Source of the DNA: Flammeovirgaceae bacterium
Lineage (GTDB): Bacteria > Bacteroidota > Bacteroidia > Cytophagales > Cyclobacteriaceae
Direction of reading: 5' to 3'
Assembly (NCBI GenBank): GCA_003228395.1
Contig: QIDJ01000124.1
Span: 1 to 11,532, forward strand
DNA: 11,532 nt
Below the pieces are notes generated by a model that was given only the letters and a program-made list of their open reading frames with translations, had not been told where the DNA came from and ran no database searches. Below are positions 1,830-11,130 of the stretch, in pieces. Both the position numbers and the translations under genes were made by a program. Position 1 is the stretch's first letter; each line of letters opens with the position of its first letter.

Positions 1830-4151
1830 TCAGTTTATGCCCGACGTCTCTCCTGAAAGCTGCTCTCTGGTGTAGGTTTTCCATTTGCCGGGCACCATCG
1901 CCAGGAAGGTATCACTTACTTTGGAATACAGGAGTTGCTTGTATAAAAACGGGATACGGATAACGCCATCCATATCCACAACCCCATACAATCCCCGCCG
2001 TTTTACAATGATCAGGTTATTTTTAAGAGGCTGCACACGTTCATATTTAGGAAATAACAATGTTTTGCCACTACGGTCGATCAGACCATATAATCCATCC
2101 TTTTCGGAAACCCATAGTCCGTTAATCGATTTTGTAAGCTTATCGGAATCAACTTGCTTGATCAGCTTTCCCTGCCCGTTTATAATACCCCATTTTGTTC
2201 CCTGGCGCACGGGGCATACCCCGTTTTCGAACTTCCCCGTTTCATTATAAAGAGGCTGAACGGCCAGGATTTCACGTTTATCAATAAAGCCCCATTTGCC
2301 CCGTATTTTCACTGCGGCAAGGCCCTCGCTGAATGGTTTTGCTGCCTCATACCTGTTTGCGATCCGCAGTTTGCCGCTCAGGCTGGAAAAGCCGTAAAAC
2401 CCCTGATGTTTGATTCTTAATAACCCTTCGACCGGCGGATCAATATCTTCATAAATCCCGAACGGAATGTATGTTCTGCCTGAAAAGGATACCACGCCTG
2501 CACTCCCTTCTTTTTTGATGATATACAGGCTGTCCCGGAACTGAATGTGTTCGGTGAAACCTGAGTCTGATTTAGAAAAAATAACGCCTTGAAAACTCAC
2601 AAACCAGGAAGTTGCACTGTCGATCTTTTCTTCCAGGTAGCTGTCTTTTGCAATGAGTTTTTTTTCTGTAAAATAAATTAGCGTCTGATCGAAGTCTTTC
2701 AGCCATGTGAGTTTTTTTGATTTTTCAAGATATAGCGTATCGTTGATAATCGTAATTTCTTGTTTTTCAGGAAGGATGAGCCAGTTCCCCGCTTTATCAA
2801 TCACGCCCTGCTCATTATGAAAGACAACGATAGATTTTCCTGAATTAAAAGGAGTAACACCTTCGAAGACACAGTGAATGACTTCGTGGCCGCTCCGGTT
2901 CATGAAACCCCACTTACCATTTCTTTTCACAGCAAATAACCCCTCGCTGACAGGCTTTACCGCCGTGTAGAAATACTGATTTTTCCGGATCCCCAGCGTG
3001 TCATAAACCGACCATCCCGCGTCGCGGCCTTTTGATCTTAAAACATAAACGAATCCGGTGTCCACATAAAGACTGTCGTAAACCGGTTGTATCAGTTCTT
3101 CGCCTGTTTGGGTTATAATTCCGGTTCGTCCGTTCAGCGTTACCTGGTAAAAACTACCTGGAATAGGCAGCATTGAATTGTAGGCTATTTTTGTAATTAA
3201 TTCGCCGGGGATTGTAAGGCGGTACATGTTGTTAATACCTGCAATAAATGCATTTTGTGATGTTTCTTCTATCGTATCAAATAGCATCACACGTTGCGTT
3301 GTATTGTCTGGTGAAAGCAAATGCCATGCACTGACCGGCAGCGCGCTCACTGTGTTATTCGCGATCTCAATTTTTCTGAATTCAGGATTCAGTACATTTC
3401 TCCCGGCCATATCAACCAATCCTGCTTTGCCGTCACGAAAAATAAAAAAATAGTCTCCGTCAGCATGGGCAATGCTGTCAATTTGAAACCGAAGCGCTTC
3501 CCTGCCATTTGTGTTTACCAGCGACAACTTTCCGTTTTCCCGGGTCACTGCCAGCAGTTTTTCAGTTAACCGGTAAATGTTTGGGTAAGCAAAAGGGAGT
3601 AATTGGGTATTATTCAGGTCAATTAATCCATAAACGCGTTTGTTATGATCATATTTTTGGGCTATTACGGTCGGGCCGGTTACCGAGAGTCCGGCATAAG
3701 CGAAAGGGATAATTAACTTACCTCTGGAATTTATAATGCCATAAAACTCCTCACCACTGAGCAATCCTTCTTTTGAGGCAACGATCAGGTCGTTACCAGC
3801 CCGGTAAATTTGGTTGTACTTCGCCGTGAGGGTGATGGAATTAGCTGACGAGATAATGCCCCATTTACCACCGGATCTGAACCCGATAACTCCATCATGA
3901 AATACAGGAATGCCTTCTGACCACCCGATTTCTTCGTATTGCGCCGGAATTATCTCTTTGCCATCCTGGTTAATAACGCCTTTTAATCCATTTTCTTCAT
4001 AAACATTTAAAAACGGGCCGTTTTCAATCTGCGCCCTACCCTGAAAAGGAGTGAATGCAAATTGAAAAAGGAGTATTCCAAAAACGATTTTTTTCGTTGT
4101 CACAGCAGCCGTCTTCACATGTATTGAATTGCCAAAAATACAAGTTAACAT
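1830..4151 (-). CDS. Exported WG-repeat protein
   Basis: The 773-residue protein has an N-terminal signal peptide (KKIVFGILLFQFAFTPF, residues 20-36, then GRAQ) and is otherwise made of about 16 degenerate WG/KWG-type repeats (PF14903 family) from about residue 52 to 745. Clear units are GKWGII (95-100), YGIINSRGKLIIPF (137-150), YGLIDLNN (174-181), GKWGFMNRSG (412-421), GKWGFIDK (618-625), TKWGIINGQGK (652-662), GLYGLIDRSGK (686-696) and GLYGVVDMDG (720-729). Between them lie links such as 'KPFSEGLAAVK'. No catalytic motif is visible; such repeats form beta-rich scaffolds of mostly unknown role, here probably periplasmic or cell-surface. The ATG at 4151 gives a 20-residue n-region. GTG at 4103 (Val17) would give a more usual signal peptide, so the start is uncertain. 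It is divergent from the HHH gene, with 40 bp between the annotated starts. Confidence 0.88.
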   Translation of the reverse strand: MLTCIFGNSIHVKTAAVTTKKIVFGILLFQFAFTPFQGRAQIENGPFLNVYEENGLKGVINQDGKEIIPAQYEEIGWSEGIPVFHDGVIGFRSGGKWGIISSANSITLTAKYNQIYRAGNDLIVASKEGLLSGEEFYGIINSRGKLIIPFAYAGLSVTGPTVIAQKYDHNKRVYGLIDLNNTQLLPFAYPNIYRLTEKLLAVTRENGKLSLVNTNGREALRFQIDSIAHADGDYFFIFRDGKAGLVDMAGRNVLNPEFRKIEIANNTVSALPVSAWHLLSPDNTTQRVMLFDTIEETSQNAFIAGINNMYRLTIPGELITKIAYNSMLPIPGSFYQVTLNGRTGIITQTGEELIQPVYDSLYVDTGFVYVLRSKGRDAGWSVYDTLGIRKNQYFYTAVKPVSEGLFAVKRNGKWGFMNRSGHEVIHCVFEGVTPFNSGKSIVVFHNEQGVIDKAGNWLILPEKQEITIINDTLYLEKSKKLTWLKDFDQTLIYFTEKKLIAKDSYLEEKIDSATSWFVSFQGVIFSKSDSGFTEHIQFRDSLYIIKKEGSAGVVSFSGRTYIPFGIYEDIDPPVEGLLRIKHQGFYGFSSLSGKLRIANRYEAAKPFSEGLAAVKIRGKWGFIDKREILAVQPLYNETGKFENGVCPVRQGTKWGIINGQGKLIKQVDSDKLTKSINGLWVSEKDGLYGLIDRSGKTLLFPKYERVQPLKNNLIIVKRRGLYGVVDMDGVIRIPFLYKQLLYSKVSDTFLAMVPGKWKTYTREQLSGETSGIN

Positions 4152-5303: not shown

Positions 5304-8300
5304 ATGCAGAAAATTCTTAAATCCTATTTACGGCGGCTTACAAACCTTACTGCCACCAACCGCTCACTGTTGTTGATGAGGTTGGTTTCGGAGCAATTTA
5401 TCGATCTGCACGACCTCAATTTTGCGCAGAACAGGCCTTCATTTGAGATCATAGAAGAACTGATTGGCAGGAAGCAGGTAATCTCACTTTGTCCCCTGCA
5501 GGATGCAAGAGATGAGTTTACGAATGCCATGAGCCGGAAACTCAAGAGGCTGAACCGGGTTGAAAAATTCATTTTTGAAGAAAGAGGATCAAAAGACCTG
5601 TATGTAGGCTGGCCCTTTTTAAGAGGAAAATTTTCCGACGGTACGCTTGTACGGTGTCCGCTCATGTTTTTCCCGGTAGAACTCGAATCGAAAAATAACC
5701 GGTGGATGCTGAAACAGCGGGAAGAAGTCAATATTACGCTGAATAAAACCTTTCTGCTGGCCTACGCTTATTTCAATAAAGTAAAGATTGGTGATGATCT
5801 TCTGGAACGGGTGTTTGATGACTTTGATACGGACAGTACGGTGTTCCGGACGGCGCTGTACCAGCTTTTCAAGGAAAGCCCGATTAAAATCAATTTCAAT
5901 CCTGACAATTTTTCAAACAAGCTGGACTCATTCGAAAGCTTTACAAAAAAAGATTTTGAAGCAGCCACGCAGAACGGGGTGATAAAACTGATGCCGGAAG
6001 CGGTACTGGGTATATTTCCTCAGGCAGGCTCGCACCTGGTGCCCGACTATCTGGAAATGATCGAACACAATAAGGTAGCGGATATCGAGGAGTTTTTTAC
6101 TTCACGGGTCATGCTGGAAGAAGACCTGAGTAAAATGCCATTAACGAATTTTCTCGGAAAAGTGAGAGAAGAGCGGATCATCACGCCTTACCGGCTGGAC
6201 GCATTTCAGGAGAATGCACTGAAAGCCGTTAAAAAGGGTAATTCCATCGTCGTTCAGGGGCCTCCGGGGACGGGTAAGTCACAGTTAATCTGCAATCTTA
6301 TTGCTGACAGTATTGCCTCCGGCAAAAAAGTGCTGGTGGTATCACAAAAACGGGCAGCGCTGGATGTGGTGTATAGCAGGCTTAAAGAAAAAGGTATTGC
6401 TGAATTTACAGGACTGGTACACGATTTTAAAAACGACCGAAAGGAAATATACGCCAAACTCGCGAACCAGATTACCCGGATTCCTGATTATCAATCGCGA
6501 AATAACAGCCTTGATGTAATCCAACTGGAGCGGCAGTTTCAAACATCGAGCCGTACCATCGATAAACTTACTGAAGAGCTTGAAGAATATAAAGAGGCCC
6601 TTTTCAATGAAAACGAATGTGGTTTATCGGTAAAAGAGCTCTATCTCACTTCTGACCGGTCTGCACGGATCCTTGATCTGAGACAGGTTTACAAAAATTT
6701 TAATTTCAATGACATAGATGCGTTCATGGATAATCTACATGAATACATTACCTATTCGAGATTATTTTCGAAAAAATCTTATTTACTATCTGACCGCAAA
6801 TCCTTTCACACATTCGGGCTACAGGACCTGAAATCTATGCAGGAGATTCTTGAAGAGATTCCATCGCTGGAATACGATACAGGCAGGAAGATTGAGAAGA
6901 TCATCGGTGAAAGACTGGGTATTGAAGAGTGCCTAAAGTTGAATGAACAAAAAGAAACGCTCCGTGATTTTTTCAGGATACTTAAAGAGGACAGGGTCTA
7001 TGAGTATTTTCGCCGGATCATCAAATTTCCCGAAAAAGACGCGAATTTATTGTCGCTGTCAAATTCCGAGCGTGTAATACTCGAATGTTTCAGGGGCCAG
7101 GGTATAGAATCAAGCCTGCATGCATCCGAATTAGGCAGGTTTCAGGAAATCCTGGAGCGTGCCATTGATGCGAAAAAACGCCTTATCCCTTTCCTGAAAT
7201 GGATGCTGTTTGGGAAAGACAAGTATCTCATCAAGCGGGTACTGGTTGCCAACCGGCTGAGCAACGATAAAAAAGGCTTCAAGGCATTGATTGAAAAAAT
7301 GGATAACCGCCTGAACCTTGAACATAACCTTACCAAACTGCGTGAAAAAACCTGGGTGGAGGTCCTTCCTGAAGATTATAAAAAAGTGAATTTCCAGACC
7401 TGGTTTCATCTGCAGAAACAAGCCTTGAAAGCAAAGGAGATTTTCAATGCAATCCGGAATTTCAAGAATTTTTTTCGGATAAACACCTTGCTGTACGATG
7501 AGTTTCTGGGAAAAGTAGAACAGATGTTTGCAGTAATTGATACCGTAATCGAACACCGCAACAAGTGGTTGCAGTATTTTACCGCTACGCAAATCTCCAG
7601 ATTAACAGCAGATGATTCATTAGCTTACCGGATGTCAGAGGCGCTGAACCGGGATTTCGATGCGTTGTGCGAATATGATAAACTTATTGACGGGCTTAAA
7701 TCCTATGAACTGGAGGTGCTTGGAAAACTTTATGACATGCAGGATGAACTTGAGATGGAAGCAGAAGTATTATTTCAGAACAGCCTCAGAATGGCCTGGA
7801 TAGACCATATTGAAGCGAAATATCCCATCCTGCGATCCACTGCTTCGGGCAAGTTTATCCGGATGGTACGCGATCTGCAGCAGGCAGTAGAAAAAAAGCA
7901 TGAGGCAAGCGAAGACATACTTTTGATTAAGGCCCGGGAGAGATCATACTATGAAGTGGAATACAACCGGCTCAACAATATGGTTACCTATCGTGACCTC
8001 CTTCATCAGGTTACTAAAAAGCGCAGGGTATGGCCGGTACGCAAGCTTATTGCCGCCTTCCACCACGAGTTGTTTGATTTGTTACCCTGCTGGATGGCCT
8101 CTCCGGAGTCTGTCTCTGCTATTTTCCCCATGCAGCAGTTATTCGATATCGTAATATTTGACGAGGCGTCGCAATGTTTTGCTGAAAAAGGAATTCCCGC
8201 CATGTACCGTGGAAAACAGATTGTGATTGCCGGCGACTCCAAACAGTTGCGCCCTAATGACCTCTACCAGATCAGGTGGGAGGAAGAAGAAACGGACGAA

Positions 8301-9326
8301 CCTGTTCTGGAAATCGATTCGTTGCTTGAGCTGGCATCACCATATCTGATGAACGTACAACTTAAAGGACATTACCGGAGCAGGTCGCTGGATCTTATTG
8401 ATTTCAGCAATTTCCATTTCTACGAAGGAAAACTCAGTATGCTTCCGGATAAAAAAATAGCCAATATGCACCAGCCCGGGATCGAATATTTGAAGGTAAA
8501 TGGGGTCTGGGAGAATAACACCAACAGGGAGGAAGCGCTAAAAGTAGCTGATATTGTTTTCAAAATTCAAAGCGGCACGCCTGATAAATCGGTAGGGGTG
8601 GTCACATTTAATGCCCGGCAGCAAAATCTCATTATGGATATTCTTGAAGAAAGAATGACGGAAAGCGGGGTAATGCTATCCGGATCCGTATTTGTGAAGA
8701 ATATTGAAAATGTACAGGGTGATGAACGTGATATCATCATTTTTTCAACCGCATACGCCGAAGATCAAAGCGGCCGCCTGATCATGCAATTCGGGAGTTT
8801 GAATGCAGTGGGTGGCGAAAACCGCCTGAATGTGGCTATTTCGAGGGCACGGGAGAAAATCTATATTGTCAGCAGTATTTATCCGAATCAACTAAAAGTA
8901 GAGGAAGCAAAAAATGAGGGCCCCAAACTTCTAAAGGCCTATTTAAGTTATGCCCTCGAAGTTTCGAAAGGCAATTACAAGGCTTTTCAAAGGGATGCTT
9001 CCAGGCACAGCCCCATGTGGTATCTTAAATCTAAGATTTCAAAAACGGCGATCGATAAAATCGGGGATATTGAAATTCTGGATGAGATGCCTTTTGCGGA
9101 TCTCACCGTAAGAAAAGGCCAGGATTATATCGGGCTTATTTTAACAGACGACGACCTGTATTATCAGTCCATTTCGGTAAAGGAGGCCTACGTTTATACG
9201 CCATTTACACTCTCTGAAAAAAACTGGAATTTCACAGAAGTTCACAGCCGGATGTACTGGCTCGATGCAGAGAAGGTAAATGAAAATTTATTGTGGTTTA
9301 TCAACAGCAATACAACTACAACTTAA
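5304..9326 (+). CDS. DUF4011-type superfamily 1 helicase with degenerate Vsr-like C-terminus
   Basis: This 1340-residue protein is a UPF1-like SF1 helicase. Residues about 5-160 match a DUF4011 module (YLRRLTNLTATNRSLLL; then KRLNRVEKFIFEERGSKDLY and CPLMFFPVELE). Helicase motifs are complete: Q-motif RLDAFQENAL (297-306, Gln302), Walker A GPPGTGKS (319-326), Ia VVSQKRAALDVV (345-356), Walker B IFDEASQ (951-957), III IAGDSKQLRP (975-984), IV GHYRSRS (1022-1028), V NVQGDERD (1136-1143) and VI NVAISRARE (1176-1184). About 570 residues separate motif Ia from Walker B and are helical, probably coiled-coil. The stretch WPVRKL...LLPCWMASPESVSAIFP (910-942) before Walker B is typical of DUF4011 helicases. 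Residues about 1236-1333 resemble the Vsr/MTES_1575 nuclease domain but lack several expected active-site residues. ATP-driven nucleic-acid translocation is expected. Related DUF4011-helicase-Vsr proteins have been linked to phage defence; a defence role here is inference. No partner gene is adjacent. Confidence 0.9.
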   Translation: MQKILKSYLRRLTNLTATNRSLLLMRLVSEQFIDLHDLNFAQNRPSFEIIEELIGRKQVISLCPLQDARDEFTNAMSRKLKRLNRVEKFIFEERGSKDLYVGWPFLRGKFSDGTLVRCPLMFFPVELESKNNRWMLKQREEVNITLNKTFLLAYAYFNKVKIGDDLLERVFDDFDTDSTVFRTALYQLFKESPIKINFNPDNFSNKLDSFESFTKKDFEAATQNGVIKLMPEAVLGIFPQAGSHLVPDYLEMIEHNKVADIEEFFTSRVMLEEDLSKMPLTNFLGKVREERIITPYRLDAFQENALKAVKKGNSIVVQGPPGTGKSQLICNLIADSIASGKKVLVVSQKRAALDVVYSRLKEKGIAEFTGLVHDFKNDRKEIYAKLANQITRIPDYQSRNNSLDVIQLERQFQTSSRTIDKLTEELEEYKEALFNENECGLSVKELYLTSDRSARILDLRQVYKNFNFNDIDAFMDNLHEYITYSRLFSKKSYLLSDRKSFHTFGLQDLKSMQEILEEIPSLEYDTGRKIEKIIGERLGIEECLKLNEQKETLRDFFRILKEDRVYEYFRRIIKFPEKDANLLSLSNSERVILECFRGQGIESSLHASELGRFQEILERAIDAKKRLIPFLKWMLFGKDKYLIKRVLVANRLSNDKKGFKALIEKMDNRLNLEHNLTKLREKTWVEVLPEDYKKVNFQTWFHLQKQALKAKEIFNAIRNFKNFFRINTLLYDEFLGKVEQMFAVIDTVIEHRNKWLQYFTATQISRLTADDSLAYRMSEALNRDFDALCEYDKLIDGLKSYELEVLGKLYDMQDELEMEAEVLFQNSLRMAWIDHIEAKYPILRSTASGKFIRMVRDLQQAVEKKHEASEDILLIKARERSYYEVEYNRLNNMVTYRDLLHQVTKKRRVWPVRKLIAAFHHELFDLLPCWMASPESVSAIFPMQQLFDIVIFDEASQCFAEKGIPAMYRGKQIVIAGDSKQLRPNDLYQIRWEEEETDEPVLEIDSLLELASPYLMNVQLKGHYRSRSLDLIDFSNFHFYEGKLSMLPDKKIANMHQPGIEYLKVNGVWENNTNREEALKVADIVFKIQSGTPDKSVGVVTFNARQQNLIMDILEERMTESGVMLSGSVFVKNIENVQGDERDIIIFSTAYAEDQSGRLIMQFGSLNAVGGENRLNVAISRAREKIYIVSSIYPNQLKVEEAKNEGPKLLKAYLSYALEVSKGNYKAFQRDASRHSPMWYLKSKISKTAIDKIGDIEILDEMPFADLTVRKGQDYIGLILTDDDLYYQSISVKEAYVYTPFTLSEKNWNFTEVHSRMYWLDAEKVNENLLWFINSNTTTT

Positions 9327-9360: not shown

Positions 9361-9840
9361 TTAATTTTTGGAATCTGCCTTTTCAACCCGCAATCCTACG
9401 GATATTATCTCAGGCAGACTGTCGTACCGCATGTATTGCTGAAACGACATGGCATATTTTCCTGAATCAGGGAAAGTAAACTTATCCAATATCAATTGTT
9501 GGTGCTCAAAAATATCTCCGGCGCTGCTTTTTCCATTGGGAAATCCCGTTTTCGGATCAAATAAATTAATATTTATCAAATCTGATTTTAAATCTTTCCG
9601 GAGGCTGTCTTTCAGGGAGTACCTGATGTAAATATTATAGTGCGGGTATTCGGATGTGTTACGCAAATTGAGATATAAATTGTAATGCAGCCCGGAATGG
9701 GCAATATGGAAATCAAACGTTTTAATATCGGGGGTACTCCATATTCTGTCTTGTAAGTCTATATTGTCTTCATAAACTCTGCCTGAATCACACCCTGATA
9801 AAAGTACAACGGCTGCAAAAAGCCAGATTATTTTATTCAT
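9361..9840 (-). CDS. gldH: Gliding-motility lipoprotein GldH
   Basis: The 159-residue product starts MNKIIWLFAAVVLLSGC, a lipoprotein signal peptide with lipobox LSGC and lipidated Cys17. The mature part has GldH-family features: the early YEDNIDLQDRIW, an FDFHI strand, a Tyr/Asn-rich beta core (LHYNLYLNLRNTSEYPHYN), LFDPKTGFPNG, AGDIFEH and the C-terminal GKYAMSFQQYMRYDSLPE. GldH is a membrane-anchored lipoprotein required for gliding in Flavobacterium johnsoniae and tied to the Gld/T9SS machinery; it also occurs in non-gliding Bacteroidota. The frame stays open for 51 codons upstream inside the ricT-like gene, but only ATG 9840 gives the signal peptide, and the family is about 160 residues long. 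It follows ricT by 13 bp in the same direction, so an operon is very likely. It converges on the helicase gene with a 34-bp gap lacking an evident terminator. Confidence 0.92.
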   Translation of the reverse strand: MNKIIWLFAAVVLLSGCDSGRVYEDNIDLQDRIWSTPDIKTFDFHIAHSGLHYNLYLNLRNTSEYPHYNIYIRYSLKDSLRKDLKSDLININLFDPKTGFPNGKSSAGDIFEHQQLILDKFTFPDSGKYAMSFQQYMRYDSLPEIISVGLRVEKADSKN

Positions 9841-9853
9841 AAATACCGTGAAT

Positions 9854-10987
9854 TTACCGCTTGTTTTTCTTCCTTCTTTTACTATTATACTTCTTTCTGG
9901 AGTTTCTGGTTTTATTCCTGTATTTTCTGTCGAGTTGCTCAAGATCGGTATTGATGGCCCGTGCAATCTCCAGTTTCGAATCGATGTCCTCATGCAGATC
10001 TGATGGTCTTTCGCCCCGTTTGTTCATTTCCAGTATTTCCATTACCCTGGCGGTATCTATGGCATGCCAGCTTGCTTCGCCCTCAAACCCGAACCACATC
10101 AGTTTTCTGAATATATCCGTTTTCTGCAGTGTAGCTTGTCCGCGCAAAGTCAGGAGAGGACCTTCCAGTGTAGGAATATCTTCAAGCGCATTCATGTAGG
10201 TTTCCAGTTCGTAATTCAGGCAGCATTTCAGCCTGCCGCATTGGCCGGAAAGTTTTGAGGGATTGAGTGAAAGGTTCTGATATCGTGCTGCCCCTGTTGT
10301 CACAGATTTAAAATCTGACAGCCAGGTAGAACAACAAAGTTCTCTGCCGCATGATCCGATACCACCCAGCATACCGGCTTCCTGTCTCAGACTTATCTGC
10401 CTCATTTCTACACGTATTTTAAATTCGGATGCCAGCACTTTAATAAGCTCTCTGAAGTCCACACGTTCATCTGCCGAATAATAAAATGTTGCCTTCGTGT
10501 TGTCGGCCTGAAACGCTACATCAGAGAGTTTCATTTCAAGTTTCAGCTCCTCAATTAATTCCCTGGTTCTGTAAAGGGTAGGTATTTCGCGGTTCTTGAT
10601 GGTTTGGTATTTTTCAAGATCCTTCAGGCTGGCTTTCCGGTATATCTGCCTTATATTTTCATCATCTGCAATCCCTTTCTTTATCATTTGCAACCTTACC
10701 AGTTCACCCTGCATGGCCACAAAGCCAAGATGATGGCCATTCGGTACATCCAGGATCAAGGCATCTCCACAGGTCACGTCAAGTTTCAATGTATTACGAA
10801 AGAAATCCTTTCTACCAGATTTAAATCTGACCTCCACAACATCAAAGACTTCGTACGGAGGCAGGTCCATATCTGATAACCAGTCAAACGTATTCAGCTT
10901 GTTGCACCCGCCGGTCGAACACCCGCCGTTGTTCTTACAGCCTTCAGCTATCAGCAAATCTCCGGATGTGCACGTAGAACAACTCAT
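9854..10987 (-). CDS. ricT: PSP1-domain protein, RicT/YaaT family
   Basis: The 377-residue protein carries the PSP1 C-terminal domain. Its signatures are RVDFRELIKVLA (175-186), RVEMRQISLRQEAGMLGGIG (192-211), the Cys cluster GSCGRELCCSTW (212-222, Cys213/218/219) and GQCGRLKCCLNYE (248-260, Cys250/255/256). In Bacillus subtilis RicT joins RicA and RicF in an Fe-S complex that promotes RNase Y-dependent mRNA maturation; conserved cysteines take part in cluster binding. Those partners are not known to me from Bacteroidota, so the role here may differ. A Cys-rich N-terminal extension (Cys3, 6, 17, 23, 28) precedes the fold, and a very basic tail (from about residue 354, RKYRNK to KRRKKNKR) suggests nucleic-acid contact. 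ATG 10987 is the only usable start: the five upstream ATGs lie in an 8-bp repeat and each is stopped after three codons. gldH follows 13 bp downstream. Confidence 0.88.
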   Translation of the reverse strand: MSCSTCTSGDLLIAEGCKNNGGCSTGGCNKLNTFDWLSDMDLPPYEVFDVVEVRFKSGRKDFFRNTLKLDVTCGDALILDVPNGHHLGFVAMQGELVRLQMIKKGIADDENIRQIYRKASLKDLEKYQTIKNREIPTLYRTRELIEELKLEMKLSDVAFQADNTKATFYYSADERVDFRELIKVLASEFKIRVEMRQISLRQEAGMLGGIGSCGRELCCSTWLSDFKSVTTGAARYQNLSLNPSKLSGQCGRLKCCLNYELETYMNALEDIPTLEGPLLTLRGQATLQKTDIFRKLMWFGFEGEASWHAIDTARVMEILEMNKRGERPSDLHEDIDSKLEIARAINTDLEQLDRKYRNKTRNSRKKYNSKRRKKNKR

Positions 10988-11027
10988 TTAATCATTTAAT
11001 CATTTAATCATTTAATCATTTAATCAT
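10984..11027 (-). promoter_or_regulatory. Leader of five chained three-codon mini-ORFs (Met-Ile-Lys-stop) overlapping the ricT start
   Basis: On the coding strand of ricT the repeat reads ATTAAATG, giving ATGs at 11027, 11019, 11011, 11003 and 10995 before the ricT ATG at 10987. Each of the five upstream ATGs opens ATG-ATT-AAA-TGA. The TGA of each overlaps the next ATG as ATGA, and the last TGA (10986-10984) overlaps the ricT ATG in the same way. This is the geometry of termination-reinitiation coupling. The leader is AT-rich with no Shine-Dalgarno before any of these ATGs. That they are translated is inference. Confidence 0.4.
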
Positions 11028-11028
11028 T
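10985..11028. repeat. 8-bp tandem repeat (CATTTAAT)x5 plus CATT
   Basis: Five perfect copies of CATTTAAT (10985-11024) and a partial sixth copy, CATT (11025-11028), are arrayed head to tail. The first CAT is the complement of the ricT-like start codon, so the array abuts and includes that start. Perfect short tandem repeats of this kind can change copy number by replication slippage. Because the array lies upstream of the start codon, such changes would alter the leader but not the reading frame of the gene. Confidence 0.97.
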
Positions 11029-11130
11029 CTATACATTAGGTTATAAATCCTTTTCTGATATATTTATGCTTAAACCTATTTACAGGTTAAAATGCTGAAA
11101 GATAACGAATATGAAATTAAAATTAAATAA
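11029..11130. other. AT-rich spacer between purD and the ricT leader
   Basis: This gap follows the purD stop and precedes the repeat leader of ricT. It holds a 5-bp inverted repeat, AACCT (11073-11077) and AGGTT (11084-11088), with a six-base loop. The minus strand next to the left arm contains TAGGTTTA, seven of eight bases from the bacteroidotal -7 consensus TAnnTTTG, but no TTG lies at a proper distance upstream. It could hold the purD terminator or the ricT promoter; neither is clear. Confidence 0.3.

Follow-up and report, generated by a model that had tools for sequence, protein, structure and literature searches.

The perfect octamer array that ends at the ricT start codon is, with a probability of roughly 80%, what remains of one end of a mobile element of the S23 type, and an evolved translational rheostat need not be assumed. 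The array lies in the window, by which we mean the whole stretch of 11,532 nucleotides that was analysed, and the window belongs to a genome of 2.06 Mb that is 59% complete (G000 below; its two congeners are G001 and G002).

The array consists of ATTAAATG units with a period of 8, 5.6 copies and a 100% match according to TRF (Table 1). Within it, a script located five overlapping minus-strand occurrences of the 12-mer ATGATTAAATGA, starting at 11027, 11019, 11011, 11003 and 10995; successive copies overlap by ATGA and the frames rotate, making the array a chain of five ATG-ATT-AAA-TGA mini-ORFs, and its sixth ATG, at 10987, opens the 377-aa ricT ORF. The earlier note had described just such a chain of five mini-ORFs, with ATGA overlaps and rotating frames, abutting the true ricT start; TRF and the script reproduced the chain, and the start assignment holds as well, because both congeners begin the coding sequence at the equivalent ATG. 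Four array units, allowing up to 3 mismatches, matched three times in the window against a mean of 0.00 in 200 shuffles, so that chance is not expected to supply them. The identity of RicT is given by NF041131 (255 bits, cut-off 70) and also by PF04468, and only 13 bases separate the ricT stop from the gldH start, a spacing that makes one transcript for both genes plausible. The window gave no match in Rfam. Its ORF list, our only source for the two following entries, also includes a 1340-aa ORF with a GPPGTGKSQ motif (5304-9326) and, at 1830-4151, an ORF of 773 aa in which internal repeats contain WG.

Table 1. Features of the purD-ricT-gldH region, in window coordinates
Feature	Position	Strand	Remark
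gldH	9361..9840	minus	PF14109 GldH_lipo
ricT, 377 aa	9854..10987	minus	opens at the final ATG of the array, a start that both congeners share
Perfect 8-bp array of ATTAAATG	10984..11028	minus	TRF and script
End-A copy	11034..11081	minus	agrees with the L055 element end at 36/48 positions
17-base block upstream of the insert	11098..11114	minus	identical in three congeners
purD 3' end, cut by contig end	11131..11532	minus	PF02843 GARS_C

The octamer is not confined to ricT. Two exact units in a row occur in the genome only at the ricT site and on contig C123, and a degenerate three-unit form with up to 3 mismatches gave 48 overlapping matches on 16 contigs, the window's included, with none for the reversed control. 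The arrays seen around those matches hold 3 to 22 units and lie mostly in gaps between ORFs, only the one on C158 falling inside an ORF of at least 90 aa; three sites (C3, C158 and C263) carry inward-facing array pairs. A device private to ricT was therefore rejected, the family being dispersed on 15 other contigs. Copies of the octamer array in other non-genic places had been named by the earlier note as what would speak against a tuning role, and this is largely what we see, at mostly inter-ORF positions on those contigs. Of 59 relatives' genomes only G000 had three perfect MTTRAATG units, and of 395 genomes of the phylum four had them, G000 included, so the unit itself is seldom met beyond the genus. 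In stretches taken without bias, TRF gave two rows of period 7 or 8 across 265 kb of G000, none across 294 kb of G001 and four across 255 kb of G002, too few to weigh. A different repeat, arrays of the heptamer GTTGGCA, was seen on contigs C80 and C83 of G000 and C24 and C53 of G002, and in none of eight other genomes searched; in G002, one S23 gene (L114) has GTTGGCA as its flanking unit.

By comparing the purD-ricT gap with those of the congeners, whose ricT genes are 91 and 88% identical to that of the window, we found that in both of them ricT stands behind a shorter leader and the array is absent. The gap, counted from the alignment, measures 143 bases in the window versus 66 in G002, and the extra 77 bases adjoin the ricT start. 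To judge from these sequences, neither congener has an insert at the ricT site, and the array would have been gained in the lineage of the window. The array could be read as a repeat-number rheostat, in which the chained mini-ORFs evolved to step ricT-gldH translation by termination-reinitiation and slippage supplied the variants. The exact geometry and the ending of the array at the start codon suit this reading; the conserved block at 11114-11098 may hold part of a promoter, which would place the array in a transcribed leader, and in one published case (PMC4990558, as far as the excerpted text goes) the heptamer copy number before an S23 ORF varies among strains. However, both congeners do without the array, the predicted fold of the ricT leader is ordinary (z -0.24), and at other sites the family's units frequently have C as their first base, so that no ATGA chain can form there; the chain is a property of the homogenised ricT copy. 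We regard a rheostat as quite improbable, although slippage in unit number at this array is plausible.

The window begins to diverge from the congeners at about the point where a match to an element end, end A, begins. Window positions 11081-11034 align with the end of the element at L055 over 48 positions ungapped, 36 of them identical, for a score of 48; neither 1000 dinucleotide shuffles nor 1000 AT-matched pieces of G001 produced a score as high. Ten element ends compared with the window flank scored from 14 to 48, the next best being L159 at 42, and the exact S23-bearing end L333 scored 26; for the end-A motif at up to 3 mismatches the expectation in the window is 0.01 occurrences, and the single one found is at the ricT flank. 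Neither a rheostat nor a microsatellite arising on the spot predicts this 48-base upstream match to a genus-specific element end. The second of these, a neutral AT-rich microsatellite grown by slippage from the ancestral leader with no mobile element involved, draws on the congener leaders, which end in AATAAATAAATG, close to the array unit, and on the perfect identity of the units, which suggests recent slippage. However, it leaves the extra upstream stretch with its end-A match unexplained, together with the dispersed family of ATTAAATG-type octamers, and we consider it improbable.

The element itself runs from end A through a short octamer array, the core and an inverted array to end B, where end A is GGCTTTACCACGAATTTAATGAGGAATGGATTTATAACYGAATG and end B is CATTTCCACTAAAATAACAGTAGAACC; the two ends begin weakly alike (GGCTTTACC versus GGTTCTACT). 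Among stretches chosen by a pattern-search match, and counting once a G002 element seen twice, elements with both ends numbered 17 in G002, two in G001 and three in G000. Fourteen of those in G002 measure 134-180 bp and the others 291, 478 and 498 bp, the two in G001 measure 145 and 236 bp, and those in G000 span 140-158 bp. The 478- and 498-bp copies contain S23 sequence, with no full-length ORF listed in either, and S23 remnants were seen in L333, L342, L350 and L351. The cores of the short elements begin like the S23 ORF, and L348 joins an S23 start to an S23 tail; since both ends are kept and the cores resemble an S23 start plus tail, the 134-180-bp copies look like internal deletions. Shared ends in the S23-bearing 478/498-bp copies and the 134-180-bp copies thus give the derivation expected of a MITE-like element.

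The end-B pattern matched in the three congeners (G000, G001 and G002) and in 0 of 36 other relatives searched, and by this search copies of the element appear only in the window's genus. End-A matches at up to 3 mismatches numbered 13 in G000, 17 in G001 and 29 in G002, with 0, 1 and 1 for the reversed controls, and many of the three-mismatch matches may be chance. In five G002 copies (L327, L336, L338, L339 and L343) a GC-rich, hairpin-like CCTGCC...GGCAGG insert lies within end A, as though the element had itself been invaded by a REP-like sequence.

Eight array flanks of G000 were searched in G001 and G002, and six sites could be compared; the C158 flank found no match in either congener and the C89 flank short matches only. 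Solo arrays of G000 at C8 and C246, the latter of 22 units, each correspond to an inverted-pair element in G002; in G001 no array was seen at C8, and the C246 site is empty. At C85, the solo array of G000 is matched in G002 by an array-bearing insert of about 590 bp and in G001 by a short remnant with end B. The array pair at C3 is absent from both congeners, and that at C263 is absent at the G002 site, the G001 site not being found. No clear target-site duplication was seen at the compared sites. Orthologous sites thus differ in whether they carry an element, a MITE-like presence pattern, and the three sites with a solo array in G000 and a fuller element in a congener (C8, C85 and C246) support the reading of the ricT array as an element end.

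The gene that goes with these arrays is found on C123, where an intact 120-aa S23-family ORF (TIGR02436 and PF05635, both above cut-off) has an octamer-family array before it and a reverse-complement array behind it. This cassette is shared with G002 and absent from G001 (532 versus 17 bases), and its end A is present only in diverged form. Its best fold pairs the two arrays and is no more stable than shuffles (z -0.57).

According to the above comparisons, an S23-type element would have entered the purD-ricT gap in the lineage of the window, and the copy there would have lost everything beyond end A and its array: what is seen at ricT is a single arm, with core, end B and S23 ORF absent. Slippage would then have made the octamers uniform, leaving ATTAAATG repeats whose last unit meets the ricT ATG exactly. 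In an AT-rich leader, additional AUGs before the true start could compete for ribosomes or hand them on, so an effect of the array on ricT translation is possible, and any such effect would probably be a side effect of the insertion. Against an element origin it may be said that the membership of the ricT copy depends on a 75%-identical flank of 48 bases plus the octamers, and that the congener leader already ends in a AAATAAATG-like stretch, which might have given rise to octamers locally. The low score of the S23-bearing end L333, the diverged end A of the C123 cassette and the lack of a clear target-site duplication count on the same side.

The association of S23 genes with short-period arrays extends well beyond the genus. 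TIGR02436 is present in 46 of 59 genomes of the same order, with no match in G001. Flanks of 150 bp were scanned for periods of 5-12. In the order set, 65 of 66 S23 genes were used, one flank being too short; this set and the pooled set described below omit nine loci (L005 and L006, which repeat L039, and seven re-fetched duplicates). Upstream of the 65 genes, 38 flanks were periodic (31 of period 7, six of period 8 and one of period 12), and downstream 42 (33 of period 7 and nine of period 8). The ricT flanks of relatives, taken as a control, were periodic in 3/27 and 3/27 cases, none of period 7 and one of period 8. A second, named set, the best 80 of at least 586 S23 loci, spans about 15 phyla as read from record titles, many of the records being MAGs; period 7 was found in 58/79 upstream and 51/80 downstream flanks. 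Gene ends are badly placed at four loci of this set (L250, L268, L288 and L291), and its sole period-5 match, at L243, comes from a string of N. Of 78 control segments, drawn from 45 loci of the named set, 13 were periodic, eight of them with period 7, so arrays of this sort are present in the named loci beyond the S23 flanks as well. Rfam gave no match in the 20 of the 80 named loci tested.

When the 146 S23 loci were pooled, 126 had a period-7 or period-8 flank: 113 had period 7 only, 11 period 8 only and 2 were mixed, and 20 had neither. Loci with period 7 or 8 on both flanks always agreed (60 and 3, never mixed). Period 8 is clustered on a tree of 140 of the 146 S23 proteins, where this label needs 8 changes against a shuffled mean of 10.7, with 1 of 500 shuffles as low. 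A strict dictation of the period by S23 subfamily was rejected, because the C123-like relatives are mixed in period: among 27 of them, 18 had period 7 on one or both flanks and no other, one had 5 and 7, three had 8 and five had none (three of the 30 loci in this set yielded no ORF that could be used, and L315 repeats the C123 locus).

The array units differ between S23 loci and genomes. The 58 upstream heptamer units of the named set share a circular T[TG]ANNAA (6.28 bits versus at most 4.82 in 20 shuffled sets). The heptamer-phase form of the window unit is TGATTAAA, that is, the T[TG]ANNAA form plus one base. The ATG/TGA chain at ricT follows from this repeat class, in which a G at position 2 gives AATGA. 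Upstream arrays followed a sense stop within -30 to 60 bases in 65/77 cases, and downstream arrays preceded a sense start within the same range in 50/77, with a median gap of 5 among those, both being uncontrolled raw counts; the ending of the ricT array at a start codon fits the downstream habit. Complementarity between the two arms beat all 20 mismatched partners at 25 of 65 S23 loci, and at the 99% level 15/65 loci were complementary in inverted orientation but 8/65 in direct orientation too, which makes the case for arm complementarity as a general rule weak.

The fixed 7- or 8-base period of S23 flanks could also be taken to mean that the array is a row of tandem sites for a regulator, an S23-family or other RNA-binding protein, on the ricT mRNA. 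Two solved relatives of S23 have five chains per entry, which would be compatible with a ring reading tandem sites, and a regulator-binding role has been proposed for TAACTGA arrays before start codons in the excerpted text of MacGregor 2015 (PMC4679880). However, the units vary between loci and genomes, and the 59%-complete genome has one TIGR02436 gene, on a contig other than that of ricT. We hold a binding site of this kind to be highly improbable.

Several known systems resemble the genus element in part. REPIN/RAYT systems combine dispersed inward-facing repeat pairs with one gene that REPIN/RAYT repeats flank; there the gene is a Y1-type transposase and the repeats are palindromes. The gene of the genus element, unlike RAYT, is what we take to be an S23 four-helix protein, and its repeats are 7-/8-base arrays. 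BrickBuilt of Porphyromonas gingivalis is a MITE with an internal minisatellite (PMC4596501), and like it the genus element is small, intergenic and equipped with tandem repeats in a Bacteroidota genome; unlike the genus element, BrickBuilt has 23-base units, and its abstract describes neither an S23 gene nor inward-facing octamer arrays. In the 23S rRNA intervening sequence (IVS) of Coxiella, an S23 gene lies between complementary ends, and tandem heptamers stand directly before the S23 start in two or three copies by strain; the excerpted text calls the function and origin of IVS/S23 elements unclear (PMC4990558). The genus element likewise pairs an S23-family gene with tandem repeats, but unlike the Coxiella IVS as excerpted there its cassettes lie between protein genes, gene-less derivatives exist and the ricT copy has no gene. 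Since the ricT and C123 sites lie between protein genes, not inside a 23S rRNA gene, and Rfam gave no match, we did not file the element as a 23S rRNA IVS.

Dispersed heptamers are already on record from several groups of bacteria. TAACTGA itself stands beside S23 genes at L258 (Microcystis, downstream flank) and, on the other strand, at L265 (Nostocales, upstream flank). The name for such cyanobacterial heptamers is STRR. In the excerpted text of MacGregor 2015 (PMC4679880), TAACTGA arrays occur in Beggiatoaceae, cyanobacteria and Bacteroidetes, mostly intergenic, often just before starts and with a patchy distribution; that text finds no evident transfer mechanism and does not mention S23, nor is S23 mentioned in the excerpted text on dispersed heptamers of PMC4692102. 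The ricT array is like the TAACTGA arrays of the MacGregor excerpt in its short unit, its intergenic place and its position before a start codon, and unlike them in its period of 8, not 7. Titles and abstract openings, from a literature with subscription journals mostly outside it, yielded no general link between S23 genes and tandem arrays.

Taken together, we tentatively put forward, at somewhat less than even odds, that S23 genes form a widespread class of mobile elements located mainly between co-directional protein genes and not in rRNA, that the termini of these elements are inverted 7-/8-base arrays (T[TG]ANNAA, with an extra base in the 8-base form) which a pentameric S23 protein may read, and that many orphan heptamer and octamer arrays of bacteria, including the cyanobacterial TAACTGA arrays and the ricT array, are deletion debris. 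The fixed-period arrays beside S23 genes in many phyla link two problems, that of the dispersed heptamers and that of the origin of IVS/S23 elements. The ricT case calls for caution, since the repeat unit of a mobile element can produce an elegant ATG/TGA chain.
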